The translations under genes were made by a program, and so were the position numbers. Shown piece by piece: positions 2,697-46,464 of a stretch of 62,938 nt of DNA; the first letter of the stretch is position 1; the number at the start of each line of letters is the position of its first letter. The stretch is from Bacteroidaceae bacterium (GTDB lineage: Bacteria > Bacteroidota > Bacteroidia > Bacteroidales > Bacteroidaceae). The stretch is taken from NCBI GenBank assembly GCA_017540585.1, contig JAFYAT010000005.1, positions 1-62,938 on the forward strand, in the 5' to 3' direction. Under the pieces are notes generated by a model. The model made no database searches and had not been told where the DNA came from. It saw only the letters and a program-made list of their open reading frames with translations.

Positions 2697-4622
2697 TTAG
2701 TTTCCAGTCATGAACAAGTACTTTTCCGCAACCTTTGCATCCTCAGGAGCCACGTTCTTAGTACCGAAATAGCGAAGGAGAGTTCGTTCAATCTCCTTTC
2801 TGCCCTCAACCCATGAGGTGAAGTTGCCAGAGTAGAAAGCAGGCAAGGTCTCACCTTCACGGTAAGACGCCTGTAAGCAGTAGAACGAAACGGGATATAT
2901 CCTTCCTTCAGCCACGAGTCTGTCGGCAATGAGATTGACGTGCCCCACCTTAATCCAGCTCTCATAGCTGTCATTCAAGCCGCTGATAAGGTTACAACGG
3001 TACGAACGCTTAGCCCGTCCGAAGCCTGGAGAGACGTAGTCTATCGACTGATAGTTAATACCATTGACCTTAACCTCGCCGTGAGCCATGTCTGCGCTCA
3101 TGTTCTGTATGTTGTAACGTGCAGTAGGGAACTCTGCAATGCTGTACTTAAAGCCCCCATAGTCAGGAGACAGCCACAGACTGTTTGGGTCTGCCACTTG
3201 CATGCCGTCCACCACGAAGCAGTAACGGTAAGTGTCAGGTACTATGCCTGTGAGCGTTATGCTCCACACTCCGTCTGCATCCTTCTGCATGGCCTTAGGC
3301 GAAGAAACGATTTCGCCGTCGAGCATCACCTGCTTGGCATTCTCTGCCTTGAAACGGAACGTGACGCTTCCATCTTCAGTACCATACTCAGGAGAGACTA
3401 TCGGACGAGGGAAGAGGCGTGCCATTACGCCCGGAGTGAACTGCTGTTCCTTACCTGTCTTGGCGAGTGCCGGCTTACCATTGCGCATTGCCTTTTCAGA
3501 TGCCTTTGGATTGAACAGGAGAGGAAGTGTCTTGGTAAGGAAGTAACGTGCGTTCATCCAAGTATGGCCAAACTTGTCGTCAGTGTATTCCTTGACAGAA
3601 CGGATACCTTTCTGGTCAAGGAACTCCATATAGTCACGTGCATTGCCGTAAAGGAAGTCATCGGTTCCGACACCAAGCCAGAAGAGATGCAGCTTGCTAT
3701 TGGTATCCTTTGCGTTGTCATACACACCAGGGATGTCGGTGCTCGTGAAAGAGCTGTACGAACAGAGGTAAGAGAACTTGTCGAGGTTACGCAGACCGTT
3801 GCTCAGTCCCTGGTTGCCTCCGCGCGAGAATCCACCTATGGCACGATGGTCACGGTCGTTGATTGTACGGAAGCGGGACTCCACATAAGGCATGAGGTCG
3901 TCAGTAAGGTCCTTGCTGAACACGTCACCGCCGAACTGCGTCATCGGCATTCCCTGCTGTGGCTGTGCTGGTTTGAGCTTGTAAGGGTTACCGTATGGAA
4001 GTACGATAATCATCTCAGCAGCCTTGCCCTCAGCAAGCAGGTTGTCGAGGATGTAGTTCATACGTCCCACCTTGTAGTAAACCTCCTCTGTGTCGGTCGT
4101 ACCGCTAATAAGATAGAAGACAGGATAACGCTTGTCCTTGCTATCCACATCCAAGTATGTAGGCGGTGTATAGACTATAGCGTTGTTATACGCTCCAAGA
4201 CTCTTTGAATAGTAGTTGATGTAGTGAACGTCGCCGTGTCGCACGTTCTTTATGTCATGTGCAAGCGGTGACTTGCCGGGTATATCGAGAATACTGTTCT
4301 TGAAGCCTTCGTTAGGGAACCATTGAGGACACTCCGGGTCCATGACGCTCACGCCGTCAACTATGAAGCAATAAGGATACATGTCGGGAGCAGCCGGACC
4401 GACAGTAGCAGTCCACACTCCGTCATCGCTCTTTGTCATGGCAGTTCGTCCCGCAAACTGGACATCGACCTGTACTTCTTTTGCGTTATCGTTCCTATAC
4501 CTGAACGTAACGGTTCCGTCCTGATTGAACGACACGTTCTTGACTGGACGCAACTCAGTCTGCGCCTGCGTCATGGTGGCGGAAGCACAGATAAAGGATA
4601 TCAATGTTAGTAGTTTTTTCAT
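2697..4622 (-). CDS. CE1-type esterase with truncated second CE1 copy
   Basis: Secreted feruloyl/acetyl-xylan esterase candidate of 641 aa. The start at 4622 is chosen because MKKLLTLISFICASATMTQAQ is a good signal peptide; the frame extends 26 codons upstream without one. Domains: an E-set/CBM48-like module at ~30-115, an esterase D (CE1) domain at ~130-375 with nucleophile Ser266 in GGFSRGG, Asp321/322 and His353, then a second E-set module (~400-490) and a second esterase start (~515-641). That second esterase ends YLFMTGN, about where GGFSRGG aligns in the first, so it has no nucleophile, acid or His. No other frame in the 26-bp gap supplies the missing half. One active site is therefore predicted; the tail may serve binding. 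Confidence 0.85.
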   Translation of the reverse strand: MKKLLTLISFICASATMTQAQTELRPVKNVSFNQDGTVTFRYRNDNAKEVQVDVQFAGRTAMTKSDDGVWTATVGPAAPDMYPYCFIVDGVSVMDPECPQWFPNEGFKNSILDIPGKSPLAHDIKNVRHGDVHYINYYSKSLGAYNNAIVYTPPTYLDVDSKDKRYPVFYLISGTTDTEEVYYKVGRMNYILDNLLAEGKAAEMIIVLPYGNPYKLKPAQPQQGMPMTQFGGDVFSKDLTDDLMPYVESRFRTINDRDHRAIGGFSRGGNQGLSNGLRNLDKFSYLCSYSSFTSTDIPGVYDNAKDTNSKLHLFWLGVGTDDFLYGNARDYMEFLDQKGIRSVKEYTDDKFGHTWMNARYFLTKTLPLLFNPKASEKAMRNGKPALAKTGKEQQFTPGVMARLFPRPIVSPEYGTEDGSVTFRFKAENAKQVMLDGEIVSSPKAMQKDADGVWSITLTGIVPDTYRYCFVVDGMQVADPNSLWLSPDYGGFKYSIAEFPTARYNIQNMSADMAHGEVKVNGINYQSIDYVSPGFGRAKRSYRCNLISGLNDSYESWIKVGHVNLIADRLVAEGRIYPVSFYCLQASYREGETLPAFYSGNFTSWVEGRKEIERTLLRYFGTKNVAPEDAKVAEKYLFMTGN

Positions 4623-4769: not shown

Positions 4770-6824
<2,055 letters not shown>

Positions 6825-6955: not shown

Positions 6956-8815
6956 TTATTCTGTGATTGGAATCTCAAACTGAGGAGTTGGTATTCCATC
7001 CTTAGAAAATATCTCTGGAACAGGATAGTCATCATAGCAGTAACGAAGGCGGTCACCGACTATTGACCATGTGACGGTTGATTCCTTAACCACCTTTGTC
7101 TGACCATCATCGAACGTCACTACAATGCTACCATCGAACTGTCGTTTGGCAGAAAGAGCACGTGGTCCTTCACTCTCAAGCGATTTCTCACCATACGCAA
7201 GTTTACGCATTTGAAGTGCTGCACGATGACCAGCCACCTGCTTGTCCTGTGGGTGGATGTCATTCCATTCACCAGTGTCGAGTGTGGCGCCAAGAGCAGA
7301 CTTGCTGATGATACGTGTTGCTATTCGCTGCTGTTCACGGATGTCACACCATCCGCTCTGCTTAACAGGTTCTGTATGACGGGTCATATAACCTGGGAGC
7401 TGCATGATGACTATAGGTAGTTGTGCACGGAACTGCTTACGCCAGCTGTCCACCATAGCAGACAGATAGCTTGCATAATCCACTGTACCAAGGTTTGACT
7501 CACCTTGATACCATAGTATGCCCTTGAACTGGAAGTCGCGGAGAGGATAAATCATAGCGTTGTAGAGTGCCGTAGGACAATCAACGAAGTATGTAGAAAA
7601 AGGACGTGGGCGCATCTGCTTGGCAATGCACATCTGTGCCTCTTCCGACACTTTATAGACATTGTCACCCACCTCAAGCTGATAAAGCTTACCCTTGGTA
7701 AAATTAGGACGTCCTGACTGGGACATAAGGTGCACCATAATATCGTTATCACCCTTACGGAGAACTCCTTCTGGTACTTTATATATACGAGGAGGATATT
7801 CGTAAGTTGTATTGCCTACATACTTGCCATTGACGAAGATGGTATCAGCATCTTTCATTGCGCCCATACGGAGTACAGCAGCCTTGGCTGCATCTTCATC
7901 ATTCACATTGACAGTAAAACGGAACCAATAAGAACCGTTACCCTTGCTCCAGTTTGCGAAGATATTAGTCTTCTGCCAAGAAGAGAAATCATAGTCAGCC
8001 GTGTGCCAGCGGTTAACAACTGTGTCTTGAGACATCATTGTTCGTTCCCAATCACGGAAAGCGTTCATCTCGGCACGATTGACCGAATCCACCCAGTTCT
8101 CCTGTATATACTTCTGCTTATAAAACTCCTTCTCGTAAACAGGGAATGACTTGAGAGTCTGCTGCGGCATCCAAGCCTCAACACGTGTACCGCCAACGGC
8201 AGAGTTGATGATTCCAATTGGCACATGCTTTTCTTCCTGAAGTTCACGAGCCATGAAATAGCATATAGCCGACACCTCAGCACAGTTCTGTGGTGTGATG
8301 TTTTGCCATCGTAATGCACGCACGTCATTATTTGGGCGAACATAGTTGTACTGATGAGGGAACTTGAGGTAACGTATCTGGTCGTTGGAGTAATCCTTGA
8401 CGAGGTCACCTACCCTATCCATACAACGTCGTATAGGAAGTTCCATATTAGATTGTCCCGAGCAAAGGAACACGTCACCAATGAGGACGTTCTTGAAGGA
8501 TTTGCCGAGGGATAATGCGGAACGCTTTGCCCCACCCTTTACGTAGATATCGAGGGTTGTTGGTTCGGAGCATACATTCATCTTAGGAAGATATACCTTC
8601 CACCTGCCATCATCCTGTACCTTACACTTGGCAGACTTGCCATTGAGTTCCACCTTTATGGTCGCGCCAGGCTCGCCCCATCCCCAAACAGGGATTTTGA
8701 CATCGCGCTGGAGAACAATACCATCACTAAAGAATGCAGGCAAGCGCAATGTTCCTTGTGCAAGGAGCATTGCGCATTGTGCGAGAAGCAGTAATATGAA
8801 ACCGTATCTTTTCAT
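6956..8815 (-). CDS. SASA-family carbohydrate O-acetylesterase
   Basis: 619-aa secreted protein of the sialate O-acetylesterase (SASA) family; some members in xylan loci are acetyl-xylan or xyloglucan deacetylases. Signal peptide ~1-20. An N-terminal β-sandwich (~22-100) precedes the SGNH-type catalytic domain with Ser122 in FLCSGQSNMELP. A galactose-binding-like jelly roll is inserted at ~265-385 (WFRFTVNV, IFVNGKYVGNT). The catalytic Asp/His is in WNDIHPQDK near residue 525. The family name comes from sialic acid enzymes, but the location directly after SusD and before CE6, CE1 and CE15 argues for removal of acetyl groups from xylan. It is 46 bp downstream of the SusD gene. Confidence 0.85.
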   Translation of the reverse strand: MKRYGFILLLLAQCAMLLAQGTLRLPAFFSDGIVLQRDVKIPVWGWGEPGATIKVELNGKSAKCKVQDDGRWKVYLPKMNVCSEPTTLDIYVKGGAKRSALSLGKSFKNVLIGDVFLCSGQSNMELPIRRCMDRVGDLVKDYSNDQIRYLKFPHQYNYVRPNNDVRALRWQNITPQNCAEVSAICYFMARELQEEKHVPIGIINSAVGGTRVEAWMPQQTLKSFPVYEKEFYKQKYIQENWVDSVNRAEMNAFRDWERTMMSQDTVVNRWHTADYDFSSWQKTNIFANWSKGNGSYWFRFTVNVNDEDAAKAAVLRMGAMKDADTIFVNGKYVGNTTYEYPPRIYKVPEGVLRKGDNDIMVHLMSQSGRPNFTKGKLYQLEVGDNVYKVSEEAQMCIAKQMRPRPFSTYFVDCPTALYNAMIYPLRDFQFKGILWYQGESNLGTVDYASYLSAMVDSWRKQFRAQLPIVIMQLPGYMTRHTEPVKQSGWCDIREQQRIATRIISKSALGATLDTGEWNDIHPQDKQVAGHRAALQMRKLAYGEKSLESEGPRALSAKRQFDGSIVVTFDDGQTKVVKESTVTWSIVGDRLRYCYDDYPVPEIFSKDGIPTPQFEIPITE

Positions 8816-10563: not shown

Positions 10564-13500
10564 TTAGAGGTTAATCTTCATACCAAGTGAGAAGCTGCGA
10601 CCAGAGCCGAGCATGCCACGGTCAATGCCCATGCCAATGACTGCGTTCGTTGAGGCAAACTCCGGGTCATTGCCGAGATACTTGGTAAGTGTGAACAGGT
10701 TGTTTCCAGCAGCCCATACAGTGATGCCTTGTATGTAGTCGTTGTGGACTGGTAGCTTGTAGCTGAACGTAACATTCTTGAGCTTTAAGTAGCTGCCATC
10801 CTCTATCCAACGATCTGAGAAGCGGCTGTTGCCCATCTCGTCGAGGAATGAGGCACGAGGCACGTCTGTAATCTGGCCTTCATGTGTCCAACGGTTGAGC
10901 ATCGTGGTGGTCTGGTTGTAGAAGTATGCACCAGACTCGATGATAGAACGCTGGTAGTTGTAGATATCACCTCCAAGAGAGTAGTTAAAGTTGGCAGAAA
11001 GCGTAAAGCGCTTCCAGGTCAACATGGTATTGATTGCACCAAAGAGATCAGGGTTAGGGTCACCAATGACCTGCATATCGCCCTTATCAAGACACTTGTC
11101 TTCTGTCGCAAAGCGAACGTCTCCGGCACGGAAATACTGCTTTTCTCCATTCTGCTTTTCCTGGTAGATTCCTGCGTCTGATGCTTCCCTCTCAGTAGCA
11201 TAAACGCCATTGGTCTTATATCCATAGAAAAGATTCGCAGGGCTGCCCACCTGAGAACGTATCGTTGCCCCATAAAGTTCAGTATCGACGTAGGTTGTCG
11301 ATGCCGCAAGGGCCTTGATTGTGTTCTTGTAGTGACCAGCACTTATGCCTATAGACCATACGAGGTCTTTAAGGTTTAAAAGCTTTGTGTTAATAGCGAC
11401 ATTAAAGCCTTCGTTGGCGAGGCGACCACCATTGTTCCAGTTGGATGGAAGGCCTGCGATATAGGTGAGGCCATTGATGGAGAGGAGGTCGGAAGTCGTG
11501 CTTCGGAAGTATGTGAGGTCAAGACTCAATCGGTTGTCGAACGCTGCAAGGTTCAGGCCTGCCGTGAGACGACGTGTCGTCTCCCACTTCAACTTCGTAT
11601 TGCCTATGTTGCCAATGAAGAGCCCTGTCGTCTGCTGGAACATGCGGGCTGCCTCGAAGTATGTCCTTGCTGCTTTGCTGTCGATATCGTCATTGCCGAG
11701 GATGTCATAGCCCACGTTGAGACGGAGATAGTCGATTCCCTTGGCATTGAACCATCGCTCATTGGTAACGACCCATGCTGCCTCTACAGATGGGAAGAGA
11801 CCGAAGGCGTAGTTGCACATCTTGATACCCCCATCGACGTCCTTACCGAAACGGCTTGAACCGTCGAGCGATGCCCCGAGTGTGAGGTAATAACGCTCGA
11901 GGTAATTGTAGTCGGCTGTGAGGTAGTATGTGACGTTGGTGTTACGAATGTCATCGCCCTTTGTCTTCTTGTAGCGTAGGGACTTGGACATGTTAGGAGT
12001 CTTATCGTTACCCGTATCGTAGCCATTTGCAGCATTGAGTGTGTAGGTGTCGTTGAGATAGCGTACTCCTGCATGAGCATCTAAGAAGTGGGCATTGAAG
12101 CGACGGCTATATCTCGCAGTGAAATCGTTCATGATGGTAATCTGACGACCCGCAAGTGCAGCGGAGATGTTATCGACAAGTCCGAGACCTTCGACACGGT
12201 ACTCAGGGACGCCATTGGTAGGGACGTAATAACGGTCCTCGGTATTGTCTATCTGGAATGCAAAGTGGTTACTAAGACTCAGTTCATTAGTGATGCTCCA
12301 CTTCGGTGTGATAGCAAGCGTGATGAGACGATTGCCGAAGAGGTTCTTGTTCATTCCCTCACCATTGTCGAGGATGCTTACGGGATTGGCAAGTGACTTG
12401 TTGTACTTGTTGTTCACTATGCTTACATCGGAGAGGTAATCATCTGCTTCAGAGAGGTAACTTGAGAGGTTGCCCTTAGTATCGTGAGCGTATGGTGAAA
12501 GGAATGGTGCCTTGATGAGCGCAAGGAATGATGGCGAGGTGATGAGTCCGTCTGTCACATCGTCCTTGATGGCATCGTCACGAAGATTACGGCTCAGGTC
12601 ACTGTAGGATGCGTCGAAGCGCACATCAAGCTGTGGGAGCACGATGATGTCAGTGTTGAGGCGCAGGTTGAAGCGTGAGAAGGAGTTGTCCTTGAGTGTG
12701 GCGTCGCCACCTGTGTAACCTACAGAGAGGTTATAGTTGGCTACTTCGTCACCACCCTGTACGTTGATGCTGTAGTTCTGGGTGAAGGCTTCCTTATAGA
12801 CTTCCTTGTTCCAATCTGTTGAGTTGTGGTACATATTATAATAATAGTACTTAGGGTCAGACTGCAGGAACTTGAATGACGTTGACTTCTCGCCTGTTGT
12901 ACCGATAAGTTCGGATGCATAGATGCGATAGTCTGCGGCATCCATCATCACCGGTGTCTTAGGGAGAAGTTCGAATCCTCCCCCTATGCTCACGTCAATG
13001 CGTGTAGCCATCGACTTGTTGCGCTTAGTCTCGATGATGACTACTCCGTTGGCAGCCTTGGAGCCATAGATAGCGGTACCGTTCTTGAGGACGCTCACCT
13101 TCTCTATGTCCTCAACCATGATGTTGGCAAGGATGTTGTTGAAGAATCCATCATGCAATGAGTATGCGTTAAGCTGCATGTTCTGCACCACGCCATCAAC
13201 GATGACGAGCGGCTGTGCATTGGCATTGAGCGAGTTGATACCATTGAGCAACATTGTAATACCTTGACCCGGCACACCGCTGCGGAGTGTAGTGAGCATC
13301 TCCCCACCGAATGACTGCTGTATCTGGTTGTCGATACTGAGGTCATTATTGAGGTATGTGACGTTCTCGCTCTTGCCAAGTGTTGCGGTGGTGCTCTTGC
13401 TGTATATCTCTGCAAAGCGGTCGCTGTACATCTTCACTTCCCTTAGCTCGTGGTCAGCATTGCCTATTCCCTGCTGAATGACGTTATAGCCTTCGCCGGT

Positions 13501-25636: not shown

Positions 25637-25644
25637 CAAAAGTA
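25637..25644 (-). promoter_or_regulatory. Promoter (-7) of SusCD/esterase operon
   Basis: The minus strand reads TACTTTTG, matching TAnnTTTG, about 105 nt upstream of the 848-aa fasciclin gene. The -33 position reads TTTC rather than TTTG, as expected for a promoter that needs an activator. The upstream block 25654-25734 carries TGTAACAT, ending exactly 50 nt from this box. Confidence 0.55.
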
Positions 25645-25653
25645 TAATATTTT

Positions 25654-25734
25654 CACAAGAGCAGGAAATATTCATGTAACAGGTAGTTTACATCATGTTA
25701 CATATTTTTTATCATGGTATATATTAACCACTTA
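25654..25734 (-). repeat. 81-bp upstream block, copy 1 (putative activator site)
   Basis: By eye 77 of 81 positions are identical to 31899-31979, in the same orientation. It contains an inverted pair ATGTAAC ... GTTACAT and, on the minus strand, TGTAACAT (25695-25702). It lies directly upstream of the promoter of the esterase operon, while the other copy lies upstream of the C25/serpin operon. The most likely role is binding of the hybrid two-component regulator encoded at 39681-43763; this is inferred. Confidence 0.7.
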
Positions 25735-25760: not shown

Positions 25761-25827
25761 ATGACGTGCACTAAAAAAGTTGACACTTTTGAACTACAAA
25801 AATGTCAACTTTTTTAGTACACGTCAT
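25761..25827. terminator. 25-bp stem hairpin at end of serpin operon
   Basis: Arms 25761-25785 and 25803-25827 pair over 25 bp with one mismatch (core ACTAAAAAAGTTGACA) around a 17-nt loop. The right arm includes the serpin stop codon. The A/T tracts give U-runs in both directions, so it can serve as a bidirectional terminator. The length and symmetry also resemble the ends of a tiny mobile element. Confidence 0.6.
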
Positions 25828-27221
25828 CTAACTACTACTTTTTTTCCATTGACAATGTACACTCCTGATTGAGACACAGAACTACACCTTCGTCCATATA
25901 TATCGAAAATACGTCCTTCTGTCTTTGTATGCTGCGACGATTCAATACTTGTCACATCTGTACCCTCGATATTGTTGATGCGACCCATAAATAGTACATT
26001 TCGTGATTCTTTATGTACAATAGCGAATTTAAAAGGACGGTCTATTACCCAATCAATATCCTTTCTAATTGCTCTAAATCTATTTGTTCTCGTATTACTT
26101 TGGTCTGCAAGAAACACGCCATCAGCTTCAATATTGAAATTTGTATTCTGAACAATATTACCAATACCATTGCCTATGTTATCTGACAATTCATTGAGCG
26201 AGATATCCGTGTTCAAGTTAATACCTGTCAGTTCTGCAAAATAAGGATTGATTTCGATAGTACTACTCAGAGACAATTGTGGAATAATTACATATCCACA
26301 ACCAACACTATATATGTTGTCAATATTTTTGATGAGCGTATCCTCACTTTCTATTGCTTTAATAGATAGTTGTTTCATTTCATCTTTGTTTTTAGGCAAA
26401 TATATTACAAGATCATATAGGTTAGGTCTGGTCCATGGTATTTGAAAAGAGCCTAAATCATTGTCGATGACTGGGTTGTATTTAGTATCAAATTCACACT
26501 TTATAACACAATAATCATCTACGTCATATATTACTGAAGTATAATTATTCGAATTCATTCTTATGTTTTTCACACTTGAAACACTTCCATTCTGATTATG
26601 GAATTCTCCATTTATAATTTTATTAGCAAGTAGCCATGCATCCTTAAAATACAATATACTCTCAATATCAATTTTTTTGTTTGATGAAGTATTTTCTTGT
26701 TGATTCTTTACAAGAAACCTTGTTTGTTGTTGACTCCACTTATTTACAGCTTCAACATCCTTATTTGAAGAAAAATCCACATTACAAAATTGCGTATTAA
26801 ATAAATAGTATTTAGCCAAAGTGTCAACATAATTTTTTTTATACGCATATCCATCTTGTAGCCAGATTGCATTCTGTGGTTCAATACATGGATAATCTCT
26901 AGATATATATTCAGCTCCACTTAAACAATTTTTTAGAAAGATGTTAATATCCGTCATAGAATATTTATCCAAGCCCATAGATTCCATAACCTTTCTCTGT
27001 GTCTTTTCATCAGTTCCATTAAGAATCATACCAAGAGTAAGATTCGCACATAGAGGGGAAAATAAAATATTTTCATTTGGGTTATCCACACATATTTTTT
27101 CAAACAGATTAAAATTGAATTCATCAAGTTCTTTCTTTTGAGAAAAAACACAAACAGAACTTAATGAGAATATTAAGAGACAAACAATTTCCCTCATCAT
27201 ATCTTGAGTTTTATTTGACAT
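25824..27221 (-). CDS. Serpin-like protein with C-terminal sorting-like tail
   Basis: Start chosen at 27221 (MSNKTQDMMREIV...) because AAAGGA lies just upstream and a signal peptide follows; the frame is open 20 codons further. The serpin fold is supported by NILFSPLCANLTLGMILNGT near the N-terminus, and by the hinge/reactive loop followed by VIDRPFKFAIVHKESRNVLFMGRI. The hinge reads EADGVFLADQ rather than the small-residue stretch of inhibitory serpins, so inhibition is doubtful. The last ~30 residues (FDIYGRRC ... GVYIVNGKKVVVR) look like a short type IX secretion sorting tail. Last gene of an AT-rich operon with a C25 peptidase, for which it could be a partner. Confidence 0.8.
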   Translation of the reverse strand: MSNKTQDMMREIVCLLIFSLSSVCVFSQKKELDEFNFNLFEKICVDNPNENILFSPLCANLTLGMILNGTDEKTQRKVMESMGLDKYSMTDINIFLKNCLSGAEYISRDYPCIEPQNAIWLQDGYAYKKNYVDTLAKYYLFNTQFCNVDFSSNKDVEAVNKWSQQQTRFLVKNQQENTSSNKKIDIESILYFKDAWLLANKIINGEFHNQNGSVSSVKNIRMNSNNYTSVIYDVDDYCVIKCEFDTKYNPVIDNDLGSFQIPWTRPNLYDLVIYLPKNKDEMKQLSIKAIESEDTLIKNIDNIYSVGCGYVIIPQLSLSSTIEINPYFAELTGINLNTDISLNELSDNIGNGIGNIVQNTNFNIEADGVFLADQSNTRTNRFRAIRKDIDWVIDRPFKFAIVHKESRNVLFMGRINNIEGTDVTSIESSQHTKTEGRIFDIYGRRCSSVSQSGVYIVNGKKVVVR

Positions 27222-27300
27222 TATAAAATTTCCTTTTTGGTCTATTACGGCTATACGTGAATAAGTTTCACATTTTGCCATTTGTTATTATTACTTGTTT

Positions 27301-28257
27301 TTATTTTGAAGAAACGGTTATCAGTTTTGAGTCACAATGAATACCATCAACGACCAAGATCACAACATGTATTCCAGACTTCAATTCTGATACTGATTCA
27401 GAATAAGTATTTGAAGATTGTGTAAGTAAAATAGTTTTTTCGTTTTGACCATGTAGAGACTTAATTATAACATAAGCATTTTTAACGTTACTTGCAACAT
27501 TGTATTCTATGTATATATTTTCACCATTTATTTTACAACTTATAATTTTACTATTTTTCAATTTCTTAACAAGCGACGAAGGTAGATGGCTTGACATTTG
27601 TTCAATTCGACGTGACTGTTCTGCCACCTTAGCATTTAACTCTTGAATGGATTCAACAAGCATTGGAATTAGTGCAATATAATTCACTCCCTTTTCTCCT
27701 TCTTCTGAAGTATGAACAATATCAGGCATAATATCCTCTACTTCCTGTGCGAGAAAACCATATTGGTCGTTATCATCTTTTGGTCCAATAGCAAAATTTT
27801 TACCATCAACTATAACATCAGGATCTTCATCTTTCTTCCAATTAAATTTAACTGGTCTAAGCCTTAATAAATTGTTTAATCCGCCTCCCAAAGACTTGAC
27901 ATTTTTCTTTGCGCGAGAATCTGATGTAATTTTACAATCAGCAACATGTATTTTATCATATATAATTTTATGTTTATCCTCTAAAGTATGGACAAAGTAT
28001 ATTTTGTCACCAGTACCAGCTAAACATACTTTGTCTGAACGCAAATCAAGTTGAAAAAATTTATTACCAAGAGTCCAATAAGTACCACCAGCCTTTAATG
28101 TTATAGGAAGAAACTTGTGTTGCTCAACATCTCCATATGTTAACTTCCCTTTGGTGTAAATTATCTGAGCATCTACGACACATGACAACAACAACAATAT
28201 TGTCAAGACATATAATTTAGAATAGTATTGCATTGTACTTAAACATATTTTTCTCAT
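27301..28257 (-). CDS. Peptidase S74 (intramolecular chaperone) domain protein A
   Basis: 318-aa secreted protein. The frame extends further upstream but overlaps the neighbouring gene; I start at 28257 (MRKICLST...), and 28233 (MQYYSKLY...) is equally possible. The signal peptide ends VVDAQ. A ~110-residue β-rich N-terminal part precedes an S74 domain: SDSRAKKNVKSLGG holds the Ser-Asp ... Lys motif at which S74 domains cut themselves, then FLAQEVEDIMPD and a coiled coil (LNAKVAEQSRRIEQM). The C-terminal ~80 residues form a β-sandwich ending GIHVVILVVDGIHCDSKL, similar to type IX secretion tails. It is a paralogue of the adjacent gene. Confidence 0.8.
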   Translation of the reverse strand: MRKICLSTMQYYSKLYVLTILLLLSCVVDAQIIYTKGKLTYGDVEQHKFLPITLKAGGTYWTLGNKFFQLDLRSDKVCLAGTGDKIYFVHTLEDKHKIIYDKIHVADCKITSDSRAKKNVKSLGGGLNNLLRLRPVKFNWKKDEDPDVIVDGKNFAIGPKDDNDQYGFLAQEVEDIMPDIVHTSEEGEKGVNYIALIPMLVESIQELNAKVAEQSRRIEQMSSHLPSSLVKKLKNSKIISCKINGENIYIEYNVASNVKNAYVIIKSLHGQNEKTILLTQSSNTYSESVSELKSGIHVVILVVDGIHCDSKLITVSSK

Positions 28258-28282
28258 ATAGTAACTATTTACATCTGTTATA

Positions 28283-29218
28283 TTACTTCTTTGACCATGT
28301 AAAAAGTTTTGTGTCACAAGACAGACCATCAACAACAAGTGTAACAGCATGTAAGCCTGATTTAATATCGGAAATATTCTCATTAAAGCAGTCTGCATAT
28401 TTTGATATTCCAAACTTTTTCTCTTCACGTCCTAGAATTGATTTAACGACAATGTATGATTCCTTTGCATTGCTTGTCAACGTATAATCTATATCCAAAT
28501 ATCCTTCATCATCTACTGAACATTTCTGGATTTTACAATTCTTTAATTTTTTTAATATTGTAGAAGGCATCTGATTCTCCAGCTGTTCTATTTTAACAGC
28601 TTGCTCGTCGAATTTTGATTGCAATTCTTGAACAGCTTCTACTAGCATAGGGATAAACGCAATATAGTTTATGCCTTTATCTCCTTCTTCTGATGTCTCT
28701 ACAACCTCTGGCAAAATATCTTCGACCTCTTGCGCCAAAAAACCATATTGGTCATTCACATCATTCGTTGGTCCAATAGCAAAACTTTTTCCATTTACTA
28801 TGGCATCCGCATCATTATCTTTCTTCCATTTATATGTAACAGGACGCAATTTAAGTATATTTTCTAATCCATTACCAAACGACTTTATATTTTTCTTTGC
28901 ACGTGAATCAGATGTATTGATCATGCTTGCAGCATAAATAGTATTGTATTTGTTCGTAGCCGTATTATAGAAATATATTTTCTCACCAGTTCCAGCTAAA
29001 CGTGGATTATCTGGAGACAAATCCAACTGAAAGAACTTGTTATCTATAGTCCAATATGTACCACCACCTGTTATGGTAATTGGCAAAAATGGATGTGGTT
29101 CAGCCTTACCATATAATAAACAACCATTAGAATATGATATTTGTGCGTGTGCTGAAATAAAAACAATTGACAGCAACGAAACGATAAGTACTCTTTTTAG
29201 TAAAATATTGTATAACAT
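28283..29218 (-). CDS. Peptidase S74 (intramolecular chaperone) domain protein B
   Basis: 311-aa paralogue of the previous gene, with the same order: signal peptide (ending SAHAQ), short β-rich module (GGTYWTIDNKFFQLDLSPD), S74 domain (SDSRAKKNIKSFGNGL, YGFLAQEVEDILPEV), coiled coil (LQSKFDEQAVKIEQLENQ) and a C-terminal sandwich ending GLHAVTLVVDGLSCDTKLF. S74 domains trimerise and release folded trimers by self-cleavage in phage tail fibres; here a cell-surface trimer is inferred. It is 26 bp downstream of the C25 peptidase gene and 25 bp upstream of paralogue A, clearly one operon. Confidence 0.8.
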   Translation of the reverse strand: MLYNILLKRVLIVSLLSIVFISAHAQISYSNGCLLYGKAEPHPFLPITITGGGTYWTIDNKFFQLDLSPDNPRLAGTGEKIYFYNTATNKYNTIYAASMINTSDSRAKKNIKSFGNGLENILKLRPVTYKWKKDNDADAIVNGKSFAIGPTNDVNDQYGFLAQEVEDILPEVVETSEEGDKGINYIAFIPMLVEAVQELQSKFDEQAVKIEQLENQMPSTILKKLKNCKIQKCSVDDEGYLDIDYTLTSNAKESYIVVKSILGREEKKFGISKYADCFNENISDIKSGLHAVTLVVDGLSCDTKLFTWSKK

Positions 29219-29244
29219 ACTATATATTTATTAAATTGTTATTA

Positions 29245-31515
29245 TTACATTCTTCTTTTAACTGTAACTTTTGCATCTCTTGATATATACACATTTGGTT
29301 TGATAACATATTTCTCGGCATCAAAAATGTATGTTCCTCCATTTATACGGACATCACCTTGTTGCTTACTATTAGTAACATTTGTTCCAATATGTATAGT
29401 TTCTCCATAAAAAGATTTGTTACCATTTATGTTCTCATTTTGTACATATACATTCTCTGGTTGCGGTTCAAAATACGCTGTTTTTATGTATGGAATATAA
29501 TTCCGTTTTGTAACAACGATGGACACATCACCACTCACATTGTGGAAAACACATTCTTTCCCGTTTTCCACACTATAGTAACTTTTTCCATTATCTTGTG
29601 AACTCATAACACAAACACGACAGCCTTCAACATTTGTTTTTACGTTCAAAGTCGAACCAGAACATGTTATGTTTATATTGTTGAAACAGATAGGTTTCTC
29701 AGTAAAAACTGGCATTTCTGGATCACCCAATGTATTCAAGCCAAATTGAATCCAGCGATAATAAGCATGGCATATCGCAAAAGATGACTTCTCATATTTT
29801 GCAACTGAAACAATTTTTGCCAGATTTTCACATTCAACACAACCAAACATTTTTTCTTGTATGGACTTGTCATACTCGTATGACACTCCATAACCATCAT
29901 CATCTACATTTCCCAACCCCTCTACAGAACTACCAATATATGCAACAACACCACTTTTTGGTGCATTTATAAAAGCTTCTCCAAGACAGCAATTTATATA
30001 ATCCATTTCAGGAATGTATTCGTAAACTGTAAAATCATTTGTAAGACAAGCTTCTGTCAAAACAATTGTAGAAGTTTTGTTTTCGATATTTTCTACATTT
30101 TTTTTTCTATACAAGTTTCCATAAAAATTCCAACCTAATTTGTCACCATGCGAGAGCACATCGATAAAACTATAGCCCTGTGAGAAAACGTCGCTTAATT
30201 TTTCGACGCCAAATGGGAAATTAAAATTATTCTTCTTGTCAAAAAAATATTTTGGTTCAATACTAGTCCATTTTTTTACACAATTATTATATAAATCTTC
30301 AGCACAACGATAGTTACTACTGTTTCCACCATATGAACATCCTGCATATAGAAACGTATTATTAACATTTGCATTCTGTTCATAATTTAACACCTTTTTT
30401 ACAAATGTTTCAACATCTACCTTACTATGACAAGCTACACGAGAGAGATAAATATTCGGAAACAATGATATATTATCATCCAGTTCTCCATATATATTAT
30501 TATTATTAGCATTCCACTCAAAATTATCGTCGAAACATTGAAAATACATGTCTGTTGGTATTCTACAATTTATCAAAGTTTCTTTAGAATTTTTTATTAC
30601 ATTTATCTTCATATAGCATTTTCTTGTTGGCACAACATCGTCACCGCCGCCTAACAGAACAAATTTCAATCCATTACAATATGCGTCATACAAATAATGT
30701 TTTACCATCAACGGAATATCATTTCCATACATGCTATATTTACTATTTTTCTTTATCTGTTCTATCGATACAATTGCTGATGGAACTCCTTTCTTTTTTT
30801 TCCAATCAGCCAAAGGTAAGAATGAGTCTTTAAATTTATCGGAAGTAATTATTAAATATTCTATTTTATCACAGGATTTGGATAAAGTTTTACTTCGTGT
30901 TAATGGTGCATCATAGAAAACCACATCACTTGGATTGATGCATAATGATTTTACTATTTTACTATTATCATGTCCAAGTTTCACACTAGAATTTACATTT
31001 TTAAGTTTGATGTTTATTTTGATATTCTTAGTCAATGAAAGAGAATTATCTTTAGCGTTGTAAGTAAAAGGACATACTAAAAAACGAAGTAATTTATATT
31101 CACCAAAGTTATCCGTTTTAATGTATCGAACGCAAAATGGATAAGTTTTCTTTGCATAATTTGATGGCTGACGCTGTTTATTATCAATATTTTGCGAAGT
31201 GACACTTTGCATAACTGTTTGAGCGACAACTGTCTTACTAAAAATAGTCTGTAATGTAGCATCAGTTGTAAAAGAGTCAAAATCATACAATGATTTAACG
31301 GCTACATTAATAGGAACAAATGGTAATGCTGGAGCATTTAAATCGGCACCATATGAATACGAAAATTTTGAAGATGATATATTTAATTCATTTAATATAT
31401 TATAGTCATAAATGAAATCTTGTTTACCAAAATCAAGACTTATGACTTTAACGGACTGAGCATAATTACTCAGGCAAAAACTTAAAACGAATAACAAAAC
31501 AAATAACTTTCTCAT
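29245..31515 (-). CDS. Gingipain-like cysteine peptidase (family C25)
   Basis: 756-aa secreted peptidase. The signal peptide ends SNYAQ, followed by a propeptide-like β domain (~20-200). The C25 catalytic region runs ~215-620 with His in FIDVLSHGDKLGW and Cys in STIVLTEACLTNDFT, plus the family signature LGDPEMPVF. After it come β domains and a C-terminal stretch (INGGTYIFDAEKYVIKPNVYI) of the kind found at the ends of secreted Bacteroidetes proteins. C25 enzymes are classic type IX cargo. The length is far below PorU sortase, so this is not PorU. First gene of the AT-rich operon; its upstream region copies that of the xylan operon. Confidence 0.82.
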   Translation of the reverse strand: MRKLFVLLFVLSFCLSNYAQSVKVISLDFGKQDFIYDYNILNELNISSSKFSYSYGADLNAPALPFVPINVAVKSLYDFDSFTTDATLQTIFSKTVVAQTVMQSVTSQNIDNKQRQPSNYAKKTYPFCVRYIKTDNFGEYKLLRFLVCPFTYNAKDNSLSLTKNIKINIKLKNVNSSVKLGHDNSKIVKSLCINPSDVVFYDAPLTRSKTLSKSCDKIEYLIITSDKFKDSFLPLADWKKKKGVPSAIVSIEQIKKNSKYSMYGNDIPLMVKHYLYDAYCNGLKFVLLGGGDDVVPTRKCYMKINVIKNSKETLINCRIPTDMYFQCFDDNFEWNANNNNIYGELDDNISLFPNIYLSRVACHSKVDVETFVKKVLNYEQNANVNNTFLYAGCSYGGNSSNYRCAEDLYNNCVKKWTSIEPKYFFDKKNNFNFPFGVEKLSDVFSQGYSFIDVLSHGDKLGWNFYGNLYRKKNVENIENKTSTIVLTEACLTNDFTVYEYIPEMDYINCCLGEAFINAPKSGVVAYIGSSVEGLGNVDDDGYGVSYEYDKSIQEKMFGCVECENLAKIVSVAKYEKSSFAICHAYYRWIQFGLNTLGDPEMPVFTEKPICFNNINITCSGSTLNVKTNVEGCRVCVMSSQDNGKSYYSVENGKECVFHNVSGDVSIVVTKRNYIPYIKTAYFEPQPENVYVQNENINGNKSFYGETIHIGTNVTNSKQQGDVRINGGTYIFDAEKYVIKPNVYISRDAKVTVKRRM

Positions 31516-31898
31516 TATTATATAGTTTATATTTTATCAACACAAATAGTATTAATATAGATGAACACACACTATCTTATGGGTAAATAAAAACACCCAT
31601 ATTCATAATAGTCATAAGTTTTTGCTGATGTGGCTTCACATATAGGGGCCGCAAGAGTAATAATTAAACTTATTTGAGTTCTTCTTGTATTTACCAAGTT
31701 TCTTATTTCTTTTGCAAAGTTATGCAAAAAAAACAAACTCACAAAAAATAAACAAGCATTTTTCCGCAAATGCGAATATATTTCTAAATTAGGTTATCTT
31801 AAGAAACATCATATTACACATATAACAGATTAACACTCTGTACACTTGAAAACAAGTTACGACCTTAGTCACTATAGGTGATGACAATTATACATTAC
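31516..31898. promoter_or_regulatory. Leader region of C25 operon
   Basis: No gene is seen. On the minus strand a weak -7-like box TATAATTG (31885-31892) lies 47 nt from TGTAACAT in the upstream block. That would give a leader of about 360 nt before the C25 start, so another promoter closer to the gene may exist. Confidence 0.3.
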
Positions 31899-31979
31899 CA
31901 CAAGAGCAGAAAAAATTCATGTAACAGGTAGTTTACATCATGTTACATATTTTTTATCATGGTATATATTAAGCATTTA
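31899..31979 (-). repeat. 81-bp upstream block, copy 2
   Basis: Nearly identical to 25654-25734 and in the same orientation. It carries TGTAACAT on the minus strand (31940-31947). Together the two copies bracket the C25/S74/S74/serpin operon as direct repeats about 6.2 kb apart. Confidence 0.7.
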
Positions 31980-32039
31980 TGATATCCATACCTTTCACCG
32001 TCACCCATCAAAAGCAAGTATGCCACCACCCCATTTTGA

Positions 32040-32118
32040 GTTAGTGGGCAACTCTAATACAGTTAGTGGGTAACTATATTATAGTTAGTGGGTAACTCCA
32101 ACATAGTTACCCACTAAC
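32040..32118. repeat. 22-bp tandem repeat plus inverted half-unit
   Basis: Units at 32040, 32062 and 32084 share GTTAGTGGGTAAC, followed at 32106-32118 by its exact complement GTTACCCACTAAC. The last unit and the inverted one form a 13-bp perfect hairpin. Each unit also has GTTA/TAAC dyad symmetry. Located between the C25 promoter and the GH43 gene. Confidence 0.7.
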
Positions 32119-32142
32119 TCAAAATGACTTTCCCAAGGCATA

Positions 32143-32211
32143 CGATTCTATTAAAATCGTTGTATCAATTCTATTAAAATCATTTTATCGATTCTATTAA
32201 AATCGATGTAT
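32143..32211. repeat. 23-bp tandem repeat, three units
   Basis: Units at 32143, 32166 and 32189 share the core ATTCTATTAAAATC; units 1 and 3 are flanked by CG on both sides, giving a CGATT/AATCG dyad. Size and layout resemble the repeats at 15528 and 32040 although the sequence is different. Confidence 0.7.
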
Positions 32212-32546: not shown

Positions 32547-33593
32547 TTACTCGTCAATACCTTCGATTGTCTGGATTGTTCCATCCTCATTGTATGTGAG
32601 TTCGCATACCTTGAGGCTGCGGAGCCATGACTTGCCACCTGATGGTACGCTGTCGTGGTGGAAGAGATACCACTTGCCCTTGTACTCGATGATGCTGTGG
32701 TGAGTTGTCCAACCAACAACAGGAGTGAGGATAACGCCCTGATAAGTGAATGGTCCGTATGGGTTGTCACCTACTGCATAGCAGAGGAGGTGGCTGTCAC
32801 CTGTTGAGTAAGAGAAGTAATACTTGCCCCTGTACTTGTGCATCCAACTTGCCTCGAAGAAACGATGTGGGTCGTCTGCCTTGAGAGGATTGCCGTCCTT
32901 GTCAACCACGAGGATTGGACGTGGTGCCTCAGCATAGTTGAGGCCATCCTTAGTGAGGCGTACGCAACGGCTTGGAAGTGAATCTGCCTTGCCCTCTGGG
33001 AGATATGGTTCCTCAAGGTGGATATTATCCTTGTAACGCTGGAGCTGTCCACCCCAGAGACCACCGAAGTAAACGTATGTCTCGCCATCTGCATCATCAC
33101 GGAAGGCACACATATCGATGCTGTAGCTTCCTGGTATTGGTGCTGGCTGAGGAATGAATGGACCTGCTGGATTGTCGGCAATGGCAGCACCCCAGTGGAA
33201 CACGTCGTTGCGGTCCTTGAGTGGGAAGTACATGATATACTTCTTCACCTTCTTGCTGAAGCCCATACCCTTTGCCTGCTCTTCCGCATTTGTAGGAACC
33301 TCGACCTCATACTCCTGAACGTCACAGTCCCAGAGCTGACGGCCTGCCCAAGGAATATCCTCCTGACGAAGCACACATCCATGGTCAGTCACCTTGCCTG
33401 TCATAGGGTCACCATCGATAGAAAGAACGTGGTAATCCTTCATGACATACTGGTCGCCATTGTCATTTTCTACATTCTCACACTCCCAGTCGTGACTTGG
33501 ATAGATGTATATCTTACCGTCAAAGATGTGAACAGATGGGTCTGCCATGTAATCCTCTGGGAATACATATCTCTTCTTAGTTTTTGTTGCCAT
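32547..33593 (-). CDS. GH43 β-xylosidase / α-L-arabinofuranosidase, cytoplasmic
   Basis: 348-aa five-bladed GH43 enzyme without a signal peptide. Catalytic residues can be placed: base Asp18 in YMADPSVHIF, the middle Asp in SIDMCAFRDD, and acid Glu in FFEASWMHKYRGKYYFSY. The N-terminus (ADPSVHIFDGKIYIYPSHD) resembles the GH43 subgroup found beside xylo-oligosaccharide transporters. It lies 117 bp after the pentoside symporter gene and is probably co-transcribed with it, so it should hydrolyse imported xylo-oligosaccharides in the cytoplasm. An arrangement of symporter plus GH43 beside a GH10 gene is reminiscent of the xylanase cluster of Prevotella bryantii. Confidence 0.88.
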   Translation of the reverse strand: MATKTKKRYVFPEDYMADPSVHIFDGKIYIYPSHDWECENVENDNGDQYVMKDYHVLSIDGDPMTGKVTDHGCVLRQEDIPWAGRQLWDCDVQEYEVEVPTNAEEQAKGMGFSKKVKKYIMYFPLKDRNDVFHWGAAIADNPAGPFIPQPAPIPGSYSIDMCAFRDDADGETYVYFGGLWGGQLQRYKDNIHLEEPYLPEGKADSLPSRCVRLTKDGLNYAEAPRPILVVDKDGNPLKADDPHRFFEASWMHKYRGKYYFSYSTGDSHLLCYAVGDNPYGPFTYQGVILTPVVGWTTHHSIIEYKGKWYLFHHDSVPSGGKSWLRSLKVCELTYNEDGTIQTIEGIDE

Positions 33594-45441: not shown

Positions 45442-46464
45442 TTACATCTTCTCTAATACAATTCTCTTTTTCTTTATTGTATTGTATTCAAATGGCTTGT
45501 TTATCTTGATGGTGTTTTCTTTTTCTATATATTCATTGTCATCCAAATACACATTGGAATCGAACAAATATAGTTTGTCATGGTATTGTCTGTAACAATA
45601 AGCCTCCCCATAGTTCCATGTCTTTCTCGATACAAATTTCTTGTTTTGTAGCACAGAGTCCTCTATGAATCTGAATGAATTGTCAGCATCTGTATCAACC
45701 TTGTACTCTCGTGTCAGGTAGTAACCATCTGTTGTGTCCCTCTTGTTTGCATAGTGATATCTTAGCAACTCAATAGTTTTATCTACCTTGTCCACATCCA
45801 ACTTGTACATTTTGTCTTTAGTTGTGATTATCTGGCTTTCCACACTTACCTTCCTGTATGTCTTTAGGTACGCACATTCATAAGTCATAACAGTGTCCAA
45901 CACAGTCAGGAAACAGGTTGTATTCTTGAATTCCAGTATGTCCATGCCTGATAGCTCGTCAGCTTTGATTGTATCCACACTTTCTGTAATGCTTGATTCC
46001 AATTGTGCGTATTTTGAGAGAAATGCAAAGAGGTTCTTTGCCTCTTCGTTAGCTGTGTCTTCATTTGCTATTGCTTCGGGTCTTCCAATCCATACTGTAT
46101 TGTTGACACTATCATTATTAGCAACCTTACCTTCTCTTACTGCCCAGTTAATATATTTATAGCCGCCTTTTGGAAACATGATTATCGCATCTCCAAATCT
46201 ACTTACTATGACATGTGTTCCTTTGCTATAATAGATTGTATAATCTATTTCATTCTCCATTGACACTGAAGATACCGAATAGATAGAATCAAGATTTTCA
46301 TCGAATAGTTTTGCGTTCTCAAGTGCATCAACTACATAGAGAGGCAACCATTTCTGCAGATAAGAACCTTTTCTTACGGGTTCTTCTGGTATTGTCTCAT
46401 CATCTCCACACGATGTAACCAATAGTGATAATAGGGATATTGCCCAAATGAATAGTTTTCTCAT
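45442..46464 (-). CDS. Lipoprotein of unknown function
   Basis: 340 aa with a clean lipoprotein signal (lipobox LLVTSC, Cys19), followed by the acidic stretch GDDETIPEEP. I do not recognise a family. The mature part has repeated strand-like segments with Thr/Tyr-rich text (YYLTREYKVDTDADNSFRF) and a C-terminus rich in Lys. It lies just inside the right long direct repeat, at the edge of the xylan locus, convergent with the SGNH esterase. Codon use looks more AT-rich than the esterase genes, suggesting a different history. Whether it belongs to the xylan system is unclear. Confidence 0.7.
   Translation of the reverse strand: MRKLFIWAISLLSLLVTSCGDDETIPEEPVRKGSYLQKWLPLYVVDALENAKLFDENLDSIYSVSSVSMENEIDYTIYYSKGTHVIVSRFGDAIIMFPKGGYKYINWAVREGKVANNDSVNNTVWIGRPEAIANEDTANEEAKNLFAFLSKYAQLESSITESVDTIKADELSGMDILEFKNTTCFLTVLDTVMTYECAYLKTYRKVSVESQIITTKDKMYKLDVDKVDKTIELLRYHYANKRDTTDGYYLTREYKVDTDADNSFRFIEDSVLQNKKFVSRKTWNYGEAYCYRQYHDKLYLFDSNVYLDDNEYIEKENTIKINKPFEYNTIKKKRIVLEKM

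Follow-up and report, generated by a model that had tools for sequence, protein, structure and literature searches.

The subject of this analysis is a group of four genes encoding a gingipain-type C25 protease, two S74 proteins and a serpin. The group, called here the module, lies among xylan genes in a window of 62,938 nt (the whole stretch of DNA analyzed), which is the forward strand of contig JAFYAT010000005.1 of a fibre-degrading Bacteroidaceae bacterium (GCA_017540585.1), a draft genome of 149 contigs and 86% completeness. The module is probably a divergent, lineage-specific insertion of a conserved Bacteroidales operon whose products resemble cargo of the type IX secretion system (T9SS) and which joins a C25 protease to an S74 protein and to a third partner, likewise exported; in the window, a serpin would replace the usual third partner, a protein of a family that we name EGKW. 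The linkage of C25 and S74 is a conserved pair in Bacteroidales. Also readable from sequence are the catalytic dyad of the protease, T9SS tails on several of the partners, T9SS genes in the source genome, an empty site in a relative and the position of the serpin in the EGKW place. The gene set is apparently widespread and undescribed: a literature search of open-licence PMC papers found no description of a C25-S74 operon. Most knowledge of gingipain-type proteases comes from oral Porphyromonas, and this conserved operon spreads through Bacteroidales of gut and rumen. It links self-cleaving chaperones of the phage-fibre type to surface proteolysis, and it gives concrete candidates for dedicated C25 regulators in the EGKW family, free prodomains and the serpin.

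The four genes are intact and all run along the minus strand, bounded by a GH43 gene (32547–33593) and a fasciclin/SusC/SusD operon (25533 downwards). In order of transcription, they are the C25 precursor (29245–31515, 756 aa), the first S74 protein (28283–29218, 311 aa), the second S74 protein (27301–28233, 310 aa from its likely start) and the serpin (25824–27281). All match Pfam: Peptidase_C25 (PF01364) at 1.3e-39, Peptidase_S74 (PF13884) at 8e-14 and 1.6e-16, and serpin (PF00079) at 1.5e-40. This bears out the four-gene module of an initial annotation of the sequence, as do the signal peptides that can be seen by eye on all four proteins. The packing with gaps of 19–50 bp that it described is partly right. 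The most likely start of the second S74 gene is 28233 (MQYYSK..., with a signal peptide by eye) and not a GTG at 28428, and with that start the gaps are 26, 49 and 19 bp. The signal peptide of the serpin, however, begins at residue 21–29 of the listed open reading frame (ORF), so the start is probably 60–84 bp further on, and the gap to the S74 gene is then about 80–100 bp.

The C25 protease and its S74 partner

The C25 protein consists of a signal peptide, a prodomain-like region, a catalytic domain with H456 and C490, an Ig-like region and a conserved C-terminal domain. The two catalytic residues are invariant across 14 aligned C25 sequences, window included. As a single sequence, the window protein matches RgpB at 1.6e-9; the family profile matches the RgpB catalytic domain (4ief_B) at 1.6e-43, Kgp at 3.6e-33 and PorU at 5.3e-16. 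The RgpB prodomain (4ief_A) is matched by the 14-sequence profile at 9.9e-8, and PF08126 gives no hit to the window protein at 0.01. Counted on the alignment, Asp163 of RgpB, which we take to be its S1 residue, falls on Glu406 in a column that is not conserved. The C terminus has no Por_Secre_tail or TIGR04183 match. There is instead a 68-aa domain common to the relatives (29248–29451; YIQNE..IG.NVT..K..G.V.I; model match 6e-25), which we call COAT and which matches nothing in Pfam or NCBIfam; the window C25 as a whole matches no NCBIfam model. The genome yielded one further C25 gene, PorU (1091 aa, NF033707, 920 bits), on another contig, with PorV (493 bits) near it. Because PorU and PorV are encoded, type IX secretion is present in the genome as judged by its genes.

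Close relatives of this protease are rare in the genus, a full-length match being found in 2 of 45 genomes, the source genome included. In the family, 17 of 399 genomes have a relative at 1e-30 and 45 have one by profile at 1e-40. A scan of GTDB contigs gave 31 loci, of which 22 are named as Bacteroidota (Prevotella, Muribaculaceae, Porphyromonadaceae and others) and 8 are distant (WOR-3 and similar); gut and rumen samples are named in the record titles. Loci on the same contigs as others (L097, L105, L106 and L114, shared with L065, L069, L067 and L072) and one on a 3.6-kb contig (L020) were excluded before counting. From 65 C25 rows, we counted the 46 loci with C25 and COAT. The 19 rows without COAT (PorU, forms of 1500–2000 aa, WOR-3 and similar) were left out, although L075 and L092 probably fall among them only by frame or threshold. 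Some loci share a genome (L109–L111, L100/L101, L104/L112, L108, L071/L202, L073/L077, L091/L200), and there are C25 places outside the locus set, for example G141, G220, G406, G094 and G239:C34.

S74 is the immediate neighbor of C25 in 39 of the 46 loci, window included. A script found 37 of these, with S74 before C25 in 34 and after it in 3; the other two were added by hand: overlapping ORFs had hidden the pair from the script in the window, and a frameshift divides the C25 gene of L068. Among the seven negatives, L073, L110, L111 and L202 are at contig ends, L100 is N-masked, and L071 and L077 are truly without S74. Fourteen loci had been added to those of the scan on C25 profile matches alone (forms of roughly 600–800 aa), and S74 adjoins C25 in 13 of them, the remaining one starting at a contig end. 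The usual gene order is S74, C25 and a third exported protein, often preceded by a small exported protein. The last was seen by eye before S74 in 15 loci; when nine were put to Pfam, three matched DUF3244 above the cut-off (45.0, 38.9 and 35.1 bits), three matched weakly below it and three had no match. C25 comes ahead of S74 in the window, L103, L118 and L208. A tree of 42 C25 proteins places the window in a group of nine, L103 and L118 among them, with support of 98/96, without fixing its exact sister. The nearest C25 by tree path is that of L103, where the order is C25, S74, EGKW, the first two being arranged as in the window.

These counts decide most of one alternative, that unrelated AT-rich surface genes have been gathered by chance in a variable spot of a xylan locus. 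The site is an insertion point with repeats and the serpin is not found beside C25 elsewhere, both of which suit this explanation. The adjacency of C25 and S74 across Prevotella, Muribaculaceae, Porphyromonadaceae and others refutes it for that pair, and it is tenable at most for the serpin; as an account of the whole module, we think it very unlikely. Conserved co-occurrence, proposed initially as a check on the module, therefore holds for C25 and S74 and fails for the serpin. The proposal of a surface protease system is supported by the conserved pair, by the T9SS type A tails on the S74 proteins of three loci and by the presence of PorU and PorV.

The two S74 genes of the window are duplicates, 53–56% identical. 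Their proteins align over the full length with the S74 protein of L103 (39% and 36%), whose tail matches the T9SS type A model TIGR04183 (31.4 bits, cut-off 23), as do the S74 tails of L067 and L104. Of the T9SS-like tails claimed for most of the module, those of the S74 proteins are putative, by homology to L103, and so is that of the serpin, by eye; C25 has no such tail, and no T9SS tail model in the Pfam and NCBIfam libraries matches the S74, serpin or C25 tails of the window. SDxxxK is the motif of self-cleaving S74 domains, and both window proteins keep it as SDSRAKKN (28889–28912 and 27901–27924). Self-cleavage, which had been ascribed to the two proteins, accordingly suits the window pair but would not suit the whole family, since 20 of 40 S74 ORFs beside C25 have the motif (that of L209 perhaps by chance) and 20 are without it. 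With half of the C25-linked proteins lacking SDxxxK, self-cleavage is, to judge from the motif, not what holds the pair together. In L084 (8154–10841) and L085 (2148–5610), there are runs of at least three S74 genes, mostly of about 300 aa like the window pair, with no C25 in the stretch.

The persistence of the pair without SDxxxK could also mean that C25 cleaves its S74 partner, replacing the self-cut, and that the operon assembles a surface fibre. It is in keeping with this that PorU, another C25 enzyme and one encoded in the genome, is a processing enzyme of the same secretion route (PMC11969387). Both window S74 proteins and 18 others retain the motif, however; we regard maturation as the unlikely main purpose of the operon.

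The insertion site

The module is more AT-rich than its neighbors, as first noticed, with a G+C of 0.307–0.333 per gene (31–33%) against 0.42–0.52 in most 1-kb steps of the window. Because low G+C is usual for these C25 genes (below the flanks in 43 of 44 loci, by a mean of 11.4 points), it is a trait of the C25 family and, taken alone, does not point to a recent arrival in the source genome. Another AT-rich patch (34–39% G+C), with a lone lipoprotein-like gene, lies at 45442–46464. Unlike low G+C, an empty site in a relative does count as a sign of recent arrival. The fasciclin protein was found at 1e-60 in 41 of 45 genus genomes, and we compared the site at 19 fasciclin places. No module protein occurs in any of these 19 stretches, several of which end early. 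GH43 is beside fasciclin in three of them: G020 (L151), G037 (L165) and G014 (L168). In G020, fasciclin is 87.7% identical to that of the window, GH43 99.7%, and SusC, MFS and xylanase 92–94%. The site there is empty: 339 bp separate fasciclin from GH43, the module is missing and a repeat core is present once.

In the window, the module is bracketed by an 86-bp direct repeat (25649–25734 and 31894–31979, 93% identical), on which the initial annotation was silent. These are the only two copies in the genome in a search at E 0.001. The presence of the module goes with duplication of this operator-like repeat, and the nearest relative seen has no module at this site. The two genomes differ in step in three palindromic arms (ATGTAAC/GTTACAT in the window, GTGTAAC/GTTACAC in G020), and because they do, the palindromic core suggests a candidate regulator binding site. 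The left copy is directly at the promoter-like site of fasciclin/SusCD (−7 at 25637–25644). The right copy has no adjacent perfect −7 and is read as an insertion footprint. Between it and GH43, at 32039–32211, are two sets of three short repeats (22–23 bp spacing) with hairpin potential.

Control of the module by xylan through the duplicated operator is tempting, since both copies are upstream of genes on the same strand. We leave it unproven because the right copy lacks that −7 and because C25 has its own promoter-like site, TTTG-N19-TAACTTTG. This site, with the −7 TAACTTTG at 31715–31722 on the minus strand and the −33 TTTG at 19 bp, is the likely module promoter by consensus match; for all promoter-like sites, we used what we take to be the Bacteroidetes −33/−7 consensus. 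The suggested tie of the module to growth on fibre or xylan is not upheld, given its absence from a syntenic relative and the separate promoter-like site. At the other end, a hairpin with 31-nt arms (25761–25827; −45.5 kcal/mol, z −11), also passed over initially, overlaps the serpin stop codon. It is a single copy in the genome and likely a terminator.

A repeat-flanked mobile cassette was considered as a general pattern and rejected. Among 27 C25 loci compared, 7 have direct repeats that flank C25 on either side, and both copies are just outside the operon only in the window and L109 (2 of 27). In L074, one copy immediately precedes S74 and the second is some 4 kb past the third gene, and the repeats of L065, L068, L072 and L108 are short or resemble gene duplications. 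The repeats of L109 are of 111 bp (95% identical; 6653–6763 and 12737–12847) and are placed around its S74-C25 operon as in the window. A search of plasmids and viral contigs gave no match.

The third position and the serpin

In most relatives, the position of the window serpin, directly after C25 or after S74 where S74 follows, is held by an EGKW protein. These proteins are exported, often of 230–300 aa and up to about 900, with '..EGKxW..' near the mature start, '..WVEGIG..' in mid-protein and a short T9SS-type tail by eye; a single ORF can contain as many as three EGKW units. Neither Pfam nor NCBIfam gave a match above cut-off for any member tested, and the only good match of the EGKW profile among PDB sequences is a tail in common with an arabinanase entry (4.3e-8). 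A strict model finds EGKW as the first gene 3' of C25 in 25 of 44 loci and within four genes in 28; a wider model adds L070, L074, L116 and L199 for 32 of 44. The 12 negative loci include the window, across the whole of which there is no EGKW match. Among the COAT-negative rows, EGKW is the first gene 3' in L113 and L115 and the second in L075. All 35 EGKW matches in the first locus set were at C25 genes, but that set had been chosen around C25 and S74 genes; the use of EGKW as a marker of C25 loci was withdrawn since the family is widespread.

C25 prodomains also appear in the third position. L069 has a free-standing one directly 3' of C25 (PF08126 24.8 bits, cut-off 22), and in the same place L200 has a prodomain-EGKW fusion (1.8e-29 with our own model; 17.4 bits with PF08126, below cut-off). 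In L117, a 175-aa ORF (7023–7550) resembling the C25 prodomain (1.2e-7) is about 0.4 kb in front of the C25 gene. L173 (G182:C29) contains a remnant ORF (2786–3247) that joins the first 78 C25 residues to an S74-like tail and is followed by two EGKW genes; it looks like what a deletion would leave of an operon with the gene order of the window.

EGKW is associated with serpins as well. Among 30 serpin ORFs chosen from serpin search results (11 and 19), EGKW is fused to the serpin in four (L189, L212, L213, L217) and adjoins it in three (L218, L223, the latter weakly at 6e-6, and L227). The fusion in L189 (G040:C52, 4061–7732) is a 1223-aa protein of two EGKW domains, a DUF3244 match (6.8e-5, slightly short of the curated cut-off) and a serpin. 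Because of these fusions and adjacencies, and of the prodomains in or sharing the third slot, a regulator role of the third-slot protein is plausible though not proven. In L224 (G249:C42, 932–4469), there is a serpin-serpin-S74 tandem with gaps of 36 and 49 bp and no C25 in the stretch.

The window serpin has the serpin fold by sequence, with 131 distinct PDB sequences matched at 0.001 besides its Pfam score. Serpins occur in 14 of 45 C25-positive genomes, the source included, and by listed coordinates only that of the window shares a contig with a listed C25 match. No serpin adjoins C25 in the other loci among the 46. In the distant WOR-3 locus L124, where C25 lacks COAT, a serpin is encoded on the opposite strand some 5 kb away from C25. 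The serpin as a conserved third gene was rejected: phmmer matches to it in L066 and L108 (E 0.0031) are taken as a common short tail, Pfam finding no serpin there. The last 42 residues of the window serpin (25827–25952) fit by eye the short type of T9SS signal, short and long signals being described for Prevotella intermedia in PMC11969387.

The reactive-center loop region (ADGVFLADQSNTRTNRFRAIRKDID, 26052–26126) has a noncanonical hinge, GVFLADQS, where the other serpins compared have GTEAAAAT, GAEAAAVT or GTEAAAVT types. Inhibitory serpins need small hinge residues for loop insertion. Since the window hinge lacks them, classical trapping by this serpin is unlikely as far as its sequence indicates. 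After the hinge, the loop is Arg-rich (RTNRFRAIRK) and, as a putative cleavage site, would suit an Arg-specific gingipain-like enzyme. The idea that the protease carries its own inhibitor is therefore only partly sustained: the serpin is in the EGKW slot and EGKW is fused to serpins elsewhere, but the hinge is of a non-inhibitory kind and no other serpin adjoins C25.

We set out the following working model for the conserved operon, [small exported protein]-S74 protein-C25 protease-third exported protein. The C25 zymogen would be exported and become active at the surface. The S74 protein would trimerize there and serve as a stalk or carrier for the protease, or as its substrate, and the third protein would bind and tune the protease. 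In the window, this third role would have passed to the serpin, which, because the inhibitory hinge is missing, would probably be a cleavable bait, a reversible binder or a scaffold and not a suicide trap. Candidate ecological roles of the system are competition, defence and the processing of surface proteins.

The same features could be arranged around adhesion. Haemagglutinin-adhesin domains hold the gingipains RgpA and Kgp on their targets, and by analogy the third-slot proteins and S74 fibres might be binding subunits holding C25 on a substrate or a neighboring cell, with the serpin a non-inhibitory binding domain. The third slot of L109, filled by a BspA-type LRR protein with dockerin, fits this, as do the EGKW repeats within one ORF, the EGKW gene beside a GH95 enzyme and the missing inhibitory hinge. 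Prodomains in the third slot and EGKW fused to serpins with the inhibitory hinge type are harder to place, and we hold adhesion to be possible without favoring it. A combined reading is somewhat more doubtful still: a modular surface proteolysis of Bacteroidales in which C25 would work with S74 stalk proteins, might mature those that have lost self-cleavage and might be checked by an exchangeable exported regulator, be it an EGKW protein of an undescribed inhibitor family, a detached prodomain or, in the window alone so far, a non-trap serpin.

Several results count against the inserted operon with a dedicated regulator. Among the 19 COAT-negative C25 rows, S74 adjoins C25 only in L092; in L079 and L088, it is no more than four genes away. 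C25 and S74 distances agree weakly (Mantel r 0.14 for 38 pairs; 25 of 2000 permutations reached as high a value). In a draft of 149 contigs, a wrong assembly join at the repeats is possible. The third-slot proteins are not all inhibitor-like, that of L109 being a BspA-type LRR protein with a dockerin and that of L119 lipoprotein-like by eye. EGKW is broad: at 1e-5, a model that takes in the tail matches 276 of 399 genomes, and 15 of 18 EGKW loci read for neighbors showed no C25 remnant or S74 gene. Because of this spread, these loci and L182 (G371:C80, 2850–8235), in which S74 is followed by a GH95 glycoside hydrolase and then EGKW, so that a sugar enzyme is in the protease position, EGKW may be a general surface-enzyme partner. 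Finally, the window serpin is without the canonical hinge, which all 12 of the other serpin domains and all 19 further serpin ORFs possess. The facts are still best joined by a protease at the surface that has a trimeric partner and is served by an exported regulator, with the adhesin and maturation readings remaining beside this one.

Comparison with known systems

RgpB and Kgp of Porphyromonas gingivalis, also of family C25, resemble the window protease in the catalytic domain with its aligned His and Cys. The window protein differs in being remote in sequence, in ending with COAT and no recognizable T9SS tail, and in sharing its operon with S74 and a third exported protein. According to PMC13366090, the prodomain of RgpB acts as an inhibitor. 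PorU, the type IX sortase, belongs to the same catalytic family, but it scores with NF033707 whereas the window C25 matches no NCBIfam model.

Genes of C10 proteases in Bacteroides are paired with genes of staphostatin-like inhibitors, and we know of no S74 protein at those pairs. The protease of the module is of family C25, not C10. The likeness is that of a secreted cysteine protease next to candidate inhibitor genes (PMC2873492, PMC3462683). Miropin of Tannerella forsythia is, like the window serpin, a secreted serpin of Bacteroidota; the window serpin matches 5ncs_A at 8.3e-13, and the PDB titles of 5nct and 5ncw name miropin. PMC8201313 describes inhibition of gingipain K by miropin. The window serpin differs in its noncanonical hinge, its short T9SS-type tail and its location beside a C25 gene.

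The S74 proteins resemble the endosialidase-type intramolecular chaperone (peptidase S74) in their PF13884 matches and in the SDSRAKKN that both retain. They differ from it in having only about 80 aa between the signal peptide and the S74 domain and a T9SS-type tail after that domain, and half of their C25-linked relatives are without the self-cleavage motif.

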